Shown piece by piece: positions 16,363 to 19,643 of a stretch of 64,000 nucleotides of DNA. Origin of the DNA: Tumebacillus sp. BK434 (GTDB lineage: Bacteria > Bacillota > Bacilli > Tumebacillales > Tumebacillaceae). The DNA is taken from contig NZ_SLXS01000002.1 in the NCBI RefSeq assembly GCF_004340785.1, positions 124,001 through 188,000 on the forward strand, written 5' to 3'. The translations under genes and the position numbers were made by a program. Position 1 is the first letter of the stretch; each line of letters begins with the position of its first letter. The notes under the pieces are model-generated. The model did not search any database. It was not told where the DNA came from and saw nothing but the letters and a program-made list of their open reading frames with translations.

Positions 16363-17637
16363 ATGCATCTCGTTTATGCCGATAAAAAAGGCCAGATCTA
16401 CGACCATCCCGACCTGCTCGCCCTCGGGCGCAACGGGGAATTTCTGACCGACATTTACGAAGAAGAGCTGATCCCGCTCCCGGACGGCGCGACCCTCGTC
16501 TCGCTGCCGGGCACGAAAGCGCTCGGCTTCGATCCGGAGACGGGCAAGACGATCTCCTTGCCGGGCGAGGAGTACACCGCCGTCGGCGCCCTGCTCCCGC
16601 AAGGCTTCACCCGCCTGCTCCTGCCGGGCTATGCCAAGGCGGACGACGCCGAGCCGTTCCCGCTGTTCGGCTACACCGCTGTGGTTTGGAAAGACGACAG
16701 CTTCTACGTCGCCGCCGATGCGACCGACGACCCGTACCGCTGGAACCCGATGATCTTCCCGGATGCGCAAGTGGAGCAGAAGGTGCAGGAGATCACTACG
16801 CTGTATCCGGACAACCGCATCTGGAAGCATCTGACCAACTGTGCGCTCGGCTATGGCTGCCTGACCTCGCGCAACACCTTCCTCGAACGCTGGGAAGGCG
16901 CGCTGCCCGTCTCGTCGACCTGCAACGCGGGCTGTGTCGGCTGCATCTCAGAGCAGCCGGACGATTCGCCGTTCCCGTCGCCGCAGGTGCGGATGGACTT
17001 CAAGCCGACCGTCGAAGAGATGGTCGAGCTGATGCTGCACCACCTGAAAGCGTCGGACGACGCGATCATCTCATTTGGACAAGGCTGTGAAGGCGAGCCG
17101 TCCACGCGCGGCGTCGACATCGCCGAAGCGATCCGCCGCGTGCGCGCCGAGACCGGACGCGGATTCATCAACATCAACACCAACGCCGGGCTCGTCGACA
17201 TGATCAAACTGATCACCGACGCCGGGCTCGACTTGATGCGCGTCTCGACGATCTCCGCGCTCGACGACCACTACAACGCGTACTACCGCCCGCGCCTGTA
17301 CGGGGTGGAGCACGTCGGACGCTCCTTGAAATATGCGGCCGACAAAGGCGTCTACACGTCGATCAACTACCTGATCTTCCCGGGCGTCACCGACCGCGAA
17401 GAGGAGATCGAAGCGATGGTCGACTTCATCAACCAAAATGACGTCAAGCTGATACAGATGCGCAACCTGAACATCGACCCGGAGCTGTACCTCGGCACGA
17501 TCCCGAAAGCGAAAGGCGACCTGCTCGGCATGAAGACGATGCTCGACATCTTCAAGAGCGAATGCCCGAACACGGTGATCGGCTCGTACACGCACGTCCC
17601 GCCGTCCGAGTTCCGCAACACGATCAAAAAGCCCTGA
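16363..17637 (+). CDS. Radical SAM protein of unknown function
   Basis: 424 residues. The cluster motif is CNAGCVGC (Cys187, Cys191, Cys194: CX3CX2C), placed mid-protein after a roughly 180-residue N-terminal domain. That domain is rich in short beta-type segments and contains Cys160 and Cys166 just ahead of the core. The radical SAM barrel continues with FGQGCEGEPS (the GGE-like SAM site), FININTNAG, MRVSTISALDDHYNAYYRPR and NYLIFPGVTDREEE. There is no SPASM-type cysteine cluster at the C-terminus. It is a single-gene unit between two terminators. The substrate cannot be inferred from neighbours, and I do not recognise a named family. Confidence 0.85.
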   Translation: MHLVYADKKGQIYDHPDLLALGRNGEFLTDIYEEELIPLPDGATLVSLPGTKALGFDPETGKTISLPGEEYTAVGALLPQGFTRLLLPGYAKADDAEPFPLFGYTAVVWKDDSFYVAADATDDPYRWNPMIFPDAQVEQKVQEITTLYPDNRIWKHLTNCALGYGCLTSRNTFLERWEGALPVSSTCNAGCVGCISEQPDDSPFPSPQVRMDFKPTVEEMVELMLHHLKASDDAIISFGQGCEGEPSTRGVDIAEAIRRVRAETGRGFININTNAGLVDMIKLITDAGLDLMRVSTISALDDHYNAYYRPRLYGVEHVGRSLKYAADKGVYTSINYLIFPGVTDREEEIEAMVDFINQNDVKLIQMRNLNIDPELYLGTIPKAKGDLLGMKTMLDIFKSECPNTVIGSYTHVPPSEFRNTIKKP

Positions 17638-17660
17638 CCATATGGTCAGGGCTTTTCTTT
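17626..17660. terminator. Bidirectional terminator, radical SAM gene / peptide gene
   Basis: AAAAAGCCCTGACCA-TATGGTCAGGGCTTTT, an almost perfect palindrome with A-run and T-run on either side. It ends the plus-strand radical SAM gene (stop inside the stem) and the minus-strand peptide gene. Confidence 0.9.
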
Positions 17661-17674
17661 ATTGCACGTAAAAC

Positions 17675-17896
17675 TTAGTGGTTGGGGCCGTGGTCGGTCC
17701 ACCAGAGGTTGGTCACCGGCGGGTCGATTTCGACTTCGACGAGACCCGTTCCGATGGAACCTGTGCCATCTCCATCCGGTGATACGATGTTCGGACCGAA
17801 GTCGGTCCACCAAGCTTCTGCGTTGCCTTGCGGAGCTGCCAGTACCGTAACCATCGCTACGGTAGAGAGGAAGATGATGCCGATGAGTTTTTTCAT
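17675..17896 (-). CDS. Secreted peptide precursor with two WWTDxGPN repeats (candidate pheromone)
   Basis: 73 residues. Residues 1-28 form a classic Sec signal peptide (MKK, hydrophobic core, AEA cleavage site). The mature part begins at once with WWTDFGPN (29-36), runs through an acidic Gly/Pro linker, and ends with WWTDHGPNH (65-73). A duplicated 8-mer at both ends of a secreted precursor resembles Phr/PapR/NprX-type signalling peptides. GGGAGG lies 9 bp before the ATG, and there are two good promoters upstream. It follows a TPR regulator gene on the same strand. The pheromone role is inference; an antimicrobial or spore-associated peptide is possible. Confidence 0.75.
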   Translation of the reverse strand: MKKLIGIIFLSTVAMVTVLAAPQGNAEAWWTDFGPNIVSPDGDGTGSIGTGLVEVEIDPPVTNLWWTDHGPNH

Positions 17897-18014
17897 GAGT
17901 TTGTGCCTCCCGAGAAAGTAGAATCATCGTGCTGCGAACCCTAGTGTAATGTAGTGGTAGGACTTATGTTAGGTTTAAGGTTTGATAATGGTGTTGCTGT
18001 CTGCGCTATAAATT

Positions 18015-18091
18015 ATTATACAGAAGAAAGTTACAAATACAACCGTGTTTCGAAAAAAAGTGAGTATAAAATTATCTACAATTTGTAACAA
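18015..18091 (-). promoter_or_regulatory. Two promoters for the peptide gene
   Basis: Minus strand. Distal: TTGTTA (18091-18086), 17 bp, TATACT (18068-18063). Proximal: TTGTAT (18042-18037), 16 bp, TATAAT (18020-18015). The region is AT-rich compared with its surroundings. The peptide mRNA would carry a leader of over 100 nt. Confidence 0.6.
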
Positions 18092-18119
18092 GATGCTACA
18101 CGATCTGTTATGGATCGAC

Positions 18120-18148
18120 AAAAAAGGCCCGTCCAAGGCGGACAGGCC
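18120..18148 (-). terminator. Terminator of the TPR regulator gene
   Basis: Minus strand: GGCCTGTCC (18148-18140) pairs with GGACGGGCC (18134-18126) and is followed by six T. It separates the regulator transcript from the peptide gene. Confidence 0.85.
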
Positions 18149-18179
18149 GTGATGTTTCAAGGGTTGCACAGAGCTTTGG

Positions 18180-19469
18180 TTAGACCATGATCCCGATCTT
18201 GCGCAACGTTTCATCGAGGATGACATGCATCCGGCGCAAGGTGTCGGTCGCTTTGATATAGTCGCTTTGCTTTTCATACAGGTCGGCCAGCTCCTGATAG
18301 ACGAAGCGCAGTTCGCGCAGGTGCTCCTGCTCGCTGAGCGTGCCGATCGTGCGCTCGTACCAGTCGACCGCAGCCGCCACATCGCCTTGCTCGCGCTTGA
18401 CGATCGCCAAGGCGTGGTAGACGGCGGAGAGATTCTGGGCGTGGTCCGGGAGCAGAAACAGAGATTCCTGGCAGAACGCCTCCGCCTGTTGCAGCTTGCC
18501 GGCCTGCACGTAGAGCTTGGCGATCTCGCCGTGAATTTTCGCGTCATCGCTTGGAATCTCCAGCTTGCGGTATTCGGCGAGACATTCGTGCAGCAGGTCG
18601 ATCGCCTGCTCGATCCGGCCCTGCTCCGCTTCGACCAAGGCAAAATTAGCTTTGACGTCGATCGCCTGCTTGCTGTTCTGCAAGCTCTCATAGATCGTCA
18701 GCGCATCGTGGCAATAATCGATGGCGCGCGTGAAGTCGCGCAATTTCTTATAGGATACCCCGAGCCCGAGATAGACATCGGCCAACTGGCGCAGGTTGGT
18801 CGTGCCGCGCAGCAGGTTGTACGCTTCCCGGTAGAAGCGGATGCCGTCTTCGAACTCGCCGAGCTGATAATGCGCATGAGCCAGATTGGTGACGATGCGG
18901 GCGCGCGTATAAGGATCGATCTCTTTCAGCCGGGAGAACGTCTCATACGCTTTGCGCCAGTGATAGAGCGCCAGCGGGAAGTTCTCCTGCGCATAGCGCG
19001 CTTCGCCGAGCTTGTTCAAACAGAGCAGGGCGGTATGGTCATCATTTTTGCGAATCACCGTGTCATAGACCTGCTCGAACAGCTCGACCGCTTTTTCCGT
19101 CTCGCCGCAGATCAGAAACGCTTCTGCCAGATCAAATTGCACTTCGTGCACCGGGAGATGCGGCGCCGGGTTGCCGATCAGCTCGCGAAACAGGGGAATC
19201 GCCTGTTCAAAATTGCTGGCGGCCAGATACGCCTTGGCCAGCTTATAGGTGCTGGTCTGCTCCATCTGTGTCTGCATATCGGCAATAAAATATTCGATCG
19301 GCGTCTCCAGACGCTCGGCGATTTGCTCCAGCACTTTGTGGGAAGGATATGCTTTGTCCGACTCGATCTGCGAGATCATCGAGATCGTGACGATCCCGGA
19401 GCCCAGCTCTTGCTGGGTCAGTCCTTTTTGCACCCGCAGCTCGCGTATCTTTTGTCCTAAAGAGATCAA
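18180..19469 (-). CDS. HTH-TPR transcriptional regulator (RRNPP-like)
   Basis: 429 residues from TTG 19469, with AGGAGGG 6 bp upstream. Residues 1-60 are an XRE-type helix-turn-helix (LGQKIRELRVQKGLTQQELGSG...ISQIES). The rest is about nine tetratricopeptide-like helical repeats, such as AYLAASNFEQAIPLF, ADVYLGLGVSYKKLRDFTRAIDY and AKLYVQAGKLQQAEAF. This is the architecture of NprR, PlcR and PrgX-type regulators, whose TPR domain binds an imported peptide. The gene just downstream encodes an exported repeat peptide, the expected partner. A -10-like TATAAT is at 19520-19515. The DNA targets are unknown. Confidence 0.88.
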   Translation of the reverse strand: MISLGQKIRELRVQKGLTQQELGSGIVTISMISQIESDKAYPSHKVLEQIAERLETPIEYFIADMQTQMEQTSTYKLAKAYLAASNFEQAIPLFRELIGNPAPHLPVHEVQFDLAEAFLICGETEKAVELFEQVYDTVIRKNDDHTALLCLNKLGEARYAQENFPLALYHWRKAYETFSRLKEIDPYTRARIVTNLAHAHYQLGEFEDGIRFYREAYNLLRGTTNLRQLADVYLGLGVSYKKLRDFTRAIDYCHDALTIYESLQNSKQAIDVKANFALVEAEQGRIEQAIDLLHECLAEYRKLEIPSDDAKIHGEIAKLYVQAGKLQQAEAFCQESLFLLPDHAQNLSAVYHALAIVKREQGDVAAAVDWYERTIGTLSEQEHLRELRFVYQELADLYEKQSDYIKATDTLRRMHVILDETLRKIGIMV

Positions 19470-19643
19470 ATTAAACCCTCCTGAATGGTTAATTTTAGTT
19501 ATGATTGATCGCGTATTATAGTTAAGTGTTTGATTATTACCTGATTCCACATATTTAAGGTACACCCTCGTTTGAAGTTTGTAAAGCCTTCTTACATTAC
19601 TAATGTGAAAAATCAGGGAATTTTTCCCTTGCCCTTGAAAATC

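Follow-up and report, generated by a model that had tools for sequence, protein, structure and literature searches.

The window analysed here, a stretch of 64,000 nucleotides from the Tumebacillus sp. BK434 genome, carries on its minus strand a gene (18180..19469; TTG start preceded by AGGAGG) encoding a putative pheromone receptor of 429 residues. Pfam places HTH_3/HTH_19 within residues 5-62 and TPRs after them, with HTH_3 and TPR_12 above the Pfam cut-off, and the size and domain order agree with those of RRNPP receptors (250-500 aa, TPRs, usually an N-terminal HTH). The L31 gene (rpmE) lies upstream of this regulator. On the same strand, 283 nt beyond the regulator stop, a downstream gene (17675..17896, minus strand; ATG start preceded by GGGAGG) encodes an exported-type propeptide of 73 aa with two WWTDxGPN copies. 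The coordinates and the Pfam domains thus confirm the same-strand pair of HTH-TPR regulator and small precursor reported in a preliminary description of this DNA. A radical-SAM gene (16363-17637) is convergent with the peptide gene, and rho lies beyond it. The radical-SAM protein matches PF04055 and has no NCBIfam match above the cut-off; a rho-like ORF adjoins the radical-SAM gene in the three loci inspected (L142, L143 and L145).

The precursor consists of an MKK start, a hydrophobic stretch, a cleavage-like AEA site, WWTDFGPN, a 28-residue linker and WWTDHGPNH. By a simple rule, residues 1-28 (17813..17896, minus strand) form a predicted Sec signal peptide, with cleavage expected between AEA and WW. 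The first candidate pheromone copy directly follows as residues 29-36 (17789..17812, minus strand), and the second forms the C-terminus as residues 65-73 (17678..17704, minus strand), exactly as the preliminary description had placed them. At the nucleotide level, synonymous changes in the Gly and Pro codons distinguish the two copies. The precursor has no Pfam match above the cut-off and no NCBIfam match, and a search of a plasmid collection returned no match to it.

The preliminary description had assigned two promoters to the peptide gene, one of which holds up in the comparison with relatives. The sequence TTGTAT-16-TATAAT (18015..18042, minus strand), which in the window scores below the threshold of our consensus scan, recurs as TTGTA[T/A]-16-TATAAT in all seven genomes of the family, 96-119 nt upstream of the peptide start. 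Since this element is kept in 7/7, a separate promoter for the peptide gene is very likely. The other, TTGTTA-17-TATACT (18063..18091, minus strand), is a weak candidate that reached 9/12 in the consensus scan and is not conserved, the form TTGTTA-17-TATAAT occurring among the relatives in T. avium only; as shuffles of the scanned region average 2.1 such matches, the match alone proves nothing. Between the two genes, the previously noted terminator was recovered at 18126..18148 on the minus strand (10-pair stem with 7 G-C pairs, then a T-run), and the aligned relatives have, by eye, a T-run behind a possible stem. A palindromic terminator (17627..17656), which the scan lists on the plus strand, lies between the convergent peptide and radical-SAM genes; judging from its palindrome, AAAAGCCCTGACC...GGTCAGGGCTTTT, it could act on the minus strand as well and so serve both genes. 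For the regulator, we picked by eye a putative promoter, TTTACA-17-TACCTT (19557..19585, minus strand), within a conserved upstream block that reads TTTACA-17-TAC[CT]TT in 7/7 genomes. The best 11-mer common to both promoters had 24 mismatches over 14 regions, compared with 23-25 in five mononucleotide shuffles, and we therefore do not claim a shared operator.

We then consider the distribution of the pair. The family is here the seven-genome group f1 (G000-G006), where G000 is the genome of the window, G002 is T. avium and G005 is T. lacus; exact sequence matches link G004 and G006 to the loci of T. flagellatus and T. permanentifrigoris, respectively. NCBI places the genus Tumebacillus in the Alicyclobacillaceae. 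A regulator ortholog occurs in all seven genomes, with 74-97% identity to the regulator of the window in the other six (97% in G002, of the same genus group), and a scan of named genomes found it in Tumebacillus avium, T. lacus, T. flagellatus and T. permanentifrigoris. In 7/7 genomes, a gene with the WW....PN motif follows 254-311 nt downstream in the same order and on the same strand; its product of 37-92 aa is encoded by the next gene on the regulator's strand, in agreement with the adjacent propeptide of 10-100 aa expected of RRNPP pairs. Outside the family, 5/7 relatives of the same order have a 70-75% identical radical-SAM gene, and in none of these five was a regulator match or a WW motif found within about 1.5 kb; in one of them (L143), rho, the radical-SAM gene and the L31 gene are directly consecutive. 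The regulator and the peptide gene are therefore present together and absent together at this locus, which is the co-occurrence that the preliminary description had called for. The seven genomes are not independent tests, owing to their common ancestry and synteny.

Among 299 genomes of the class, with at most five candidates scored per genome, 12 had a match at E 1e-85 or better, comprising the seven of the family and five of the same order. Family orthologs scored about 1e-268 to 1e-277, paralogs from 1e-132 and order relatives 1e-104 to 1e-89, and no ortholog-level match outside the family was found in these 299 genomes. On viral contigs, 14 loci matched the regulator, each with 27-46% identity over no more than about 117 residues of its N-terminal part (one of the 14, L119, is a contig of a genome and matches in the TPRs only), and none was an ortholog. 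Two tblastn matches, L004 (E 0.17) and L005 (E 0.4), were set aside after six-frame translation showed no peptide gene.

The peptide copies are conserved in a manner distinct from the rest of the precursor. A degenerate WW pattern found 13 WW sites and four others in 14 genomes, compared with two hits for the reversed control, and at the orthologous place six family genomes have two copies and one has a single copy. The recurrence of WW....PN at the orthologous place in 7/7 genomes shows that the repeat is more than chance. WW....PN is invariant in all seven precursors, and the linker varies in sequence and in length (12-48 residues). Between G000 and G002, copy 1 (8/8) and copy 2 (9/9) are identical with one synonymous change each, while the linker agrees at 18/30 positions; between G000 and G001, the copies are again identical (8/8 and 9/9) and the linker agrees at 12/32. 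The other genus shows changes in the copies as well: G003 and G004 agree at 5/8 and 6/9 positions of the copies and at 9/14 in the linker. Residues 3-4 differ between lineages and are equal between both copies in 6/6 two-copy precursors (TD/TD, NE/NE or SE/SE), an agreement that is suggestive rather than statistically strong, since there are only three types. The T. lacus precursor (37 aa, GTG start) has one copy, and it is the one rejected by a simple charge and hydrophobicity rule for Sec signals that accepted the other 6/7. The residue before the first Trp is A in six genomes and G in one, so signal peptidase could itself create the N-terminus of copy 1. Judged from these sequences, a retained motif around a free linker fits a repeat that evolves like a pheromone precursor.

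An AlphaFold model of the regulator (mean pLDDT 90.1, pTM 0.75; 82-row alignment) consists of an HTH followed by a TPR superhelix. Among the structural matches listed, the best bacterial quorum receptors were NprR (5dbk; Z 25.3, rmsd 5.6, 346 residues aligned, 13% identity) and RapI (4i1a; Z 25.2), and identity to the Rap and NprR chains was 11-15%. LGN TPR proteins reached Z 27-29, up to 29.2, above NprR, and in a profile search designed TPR proteins scored higher than PlcR (2qfc, E 1.9e-24). The TPR fold is thus not diagnostic: the model has a superhelix like those of the solved receptors, and shares it with other proteins. The best 50 Foldseek matches among viral models were for the most part giant-virus proteins of the TPR or Sel1 type. 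An NprR chain was absent from the best 60 of the 72 sequence-search matches to the regulator, and the 13% structural-alignment identity to 5dbk falls short of the at least 30% over 80% mutual coverage to a reference receptor that defines a subfamily in the available part of PMC10075063. The modelled resemblance to NprR and Rap therefore supports the family, not a subfamily.

The regulator has numerous paralogs. HTH-TPR matches at E 1e-20 or better numbered 24 in G000, 21 in G001 and 45 in G002, and after one G000 locus with an internal stop (L060) was left out, a script found an adjacent short exported-type ORF for 54/89 of them (12/23, 12/21 and 30/45, respectively). The script required the same strand and a distance within about 450-520 nt; an earlier, downstream-only survey had given a candidate peptide at 45/105 loci. 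These ORFs lie mostly downstream, often overlapping the stop by 4 nt, and sometimes upstream. By eye, about six of the 54 look like chance, namely L053 (downstream), L066, L069, L071, L083 (upstream) and L086 (111 aa), and an upstream candidate exists too at L053, L066 and L069; two peptides (L077 and L085) were counted twice. As a strand control, the 89 regulators had 42 downstream and 16 upstream candidates on the same strand, and two and none, respectively, on the opposite strand. The 16 upstream candidates do not make a clean control, since 12 of them look by eye like real peptide genes (two others are a neighbour's peptide and two are chance-like).

Several of the paralog peptides are repeated as well: AFINGGEPLSPK occurs five times (L026), FIHDAEPL four times (L027, L033), YEPGIPM twice (L052, L096) and SITTP twice (L028-L030). 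Adjacent exported-type peptides with 2-5 copies were seen at L026, L027, L033, L052, L096, L067, L077, L085 and L088, with the cores FINGGEPLSPK, FIHDAEPL, YEPGIPM, GPGPMS, GGDPM and DIGPEPDTAP. The repeat-bearing Tumebacillus paralogs look like a large set of pheromone pairs, of which we found no description. At L077 and L085, a single exported-type peptide gene is flanked by two HTH-TPR genes, following one of them and preceding the other, so that both receptors may share its peptide.

In a tree that also held the best-scoring loci of G003-G006 (16 in all), the seven receptors with the WW peptide group together (support 1.0) within a 32-member clade (support 0.968). By the script, 24/25 of the other members lack a peptide gene next to them, which means that pheromone pairing is not the rule in this clade; the exception, L049, has an 86-aa ORF with a TTG start that is unlike the peptides. 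The orphans form four groups, three with a member in each of the seven genomes and one in the three genomes of the genus, plus the single gene L024. The groups nearest the WW receptor that lack an adjacent peptide by the script comprise L009-L020, L024 and L040-L051. By eye, a secreted-type protein of about 460 aa comes after L012-L014, L040, L041, L046 and L047, and an ABC-ATPase-like ORF after L015-L017.

In the available parts of the sources cited in this and the following paragraph, an RRNPP system comprises a receptor of the HTH-TPR or Rap type and, encoded next to it, a propeptide exported by Sec that yields a pheromone of 5-10 residues (PMC11343458, PMC10075063). Propeptides hold one to four pheromone copies, with up to eight reported (PMC11343458, PMC5199041). 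The preliminary description had presented the duplicated peptide as new-looking; tandem copies are known in Phr3T and Phr105, where both are active (PMC11343458), and the duplication is therefore not new in kind. The Rap-Phr3T and Rap-Phr105 systems of Bacillus phages likewise have two conserved copies per propeptide in an otherwise unconserved sequence (PMC11343458), but Rap, which has lost its HTH, targets proteins (PMC11343458, PMC12700828), and in Phr105 4 residues separate the two copies at the C-terminal end, whereas the WW copies occupy both ends of the predicted mature precursor.

Receptors fall into nine-TPR and five-TPR clans (PMC12700828). NprR-NprX of the Bacillus cereus group likewise combines an HTH and nine-TPR receptor with a secreted propeptide (PMC12700828), and nprX duplications are reported (PMC5199041); it differs in its peptide and in the 13% receptor identity, and the Tumebacillus pair has an intergenic promoter and terminator. 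PlcR-PapR of the same group also consists of an HTH-TPR receptor, found by profile (2qfc), and an exported peptide, but PlcR, a chain of 293 residues, belongs to the five-TPR clan (PMC12700828). The AloR-AloP systems of Paenibacillaceae resemble the situation here in having many HTH-TPR/propeptide pairs in one genome, with some genomes exceeding 25 (PMC7425212), and differ in the mature peptide (SHGRGG for AloP13), as compared by description rather than by receptor sequence. RRNPP_detector names Alicyclobacillaceae once, for ten biosynthetic clusters, in the available part of PMC10075063, and that paper's own lists may already include Tumebacillus pairs. Our literature search found no report on RRNPP in Tumebacillus, the quorum-sensing and peptide papers found for the genus being unrelated by title, and in the accessible RRNPP literature we found no match to a peptide that starts with Trp-Trp and stands at both ends of the mature precursor.

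Taken together, the co-occurrence, the motif conservation and the HTH-TPR fold support, as far as sequence goes, the RRNPP-type pair proposed earlier, and we consider it highly probable that the two genes form a Tumebacillus quorum-sensing cassette of the RRNPP type, its export, processing, import, binding and targets all being predictions from the sequence. The 73-aa precursor would be exported by Sec and cut by signal peptidase at AxA directly before the first Trp-Trp, leaving copy 1 at the mature N-terminus, and copy 2 would end at the precursor C-terminus. With one more extracellular cut per copy, the precursor would then yield WWTDFGPN and WWTDHGPN(H), two nearly identical peptides 8-9 residues long. 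An oligopeptide permease would re-import them, for which the eight SBP_bac_5 proteins of the genome offer a possible route. They would bind the concave face of the TPR superhelix and thereby alter DNA binding by the N-terminal HTH, and the likeliest target would be the peptide gene with its own conserved promoter, alongside other genes. With a gap of 254-311 nt and a terminator between them, the two genes do not form an operon; many paralog pairs, by contrast, have a 4-nt overlap.

The separate promoter and terminator are also what one would expect if the small gene encoded a secreted effector, an intact Trp-rich protein of antimicrobial or surface function that the regulator merely controls or has nothing to do with. 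Short exported Trp-rich proteins can be antimicrobial. A linker free in length (12-48) and sequence and the single copy in T. lacus fit a processed carrier better than a folded protein, and the lack of Pfam and NCBIfam matches, though compatible with an effector, does not point to one; we regard this explanation as quite improbable. The convergent, adjacent radical-SAM gene raised the idea that its enzyme modifies the Trp-Trp peptide as a RiPP. The idea was dropped on distribution evidence, the 70-75% identical enzyme of 5/7 order relatives having no WW motif beside it, and the peptide comes after a Sec-type signal sequence, making such a modification extremely improbable.

Finally, the four orphan groups and L024 in the receptor's own clade (support 0.968), together with the separate promoter of the WW gene, would suit a shared signal that is read also by sister orphan HTH-TPR receptors. 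In alignment A3, however, 76 residues invariant in the seven WW receptors occur in at most 10% of 20 sister orphans, and RRNPP receptors are usually specific for their own peptide in the part of PMC11343458 available, so that such sharing has a small chance of being right. Its strongest form, in which the WW peptide would be a Tumebacillus hub signal feeding its own and several conserved orphan sister receptors, seems unlikely to us. If true, it would tie many regulons to one signal, by way of a two-end propeptide whose gene has a fixed place in the core chromosome, with the rho/radical-SAM genes on one side and rpmE on the other.

As a two-gene cassette, the WW pair looks like a new example, not a fundamentally different form, of known bacterial peptide communication. 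WW....PN is a candidate pheromone core not met in the accessible RRNPP literature examined, and it yields two exact peptides that can be tested. Each of three Tumebacillus genomes has 21-45 such receptors, over half of them, by the script, next to an exported-type peptide in one to five copies. With its many pairs beside a conserved orphan clade, the genus is a good place to study the gain, duplication and loss of signals.
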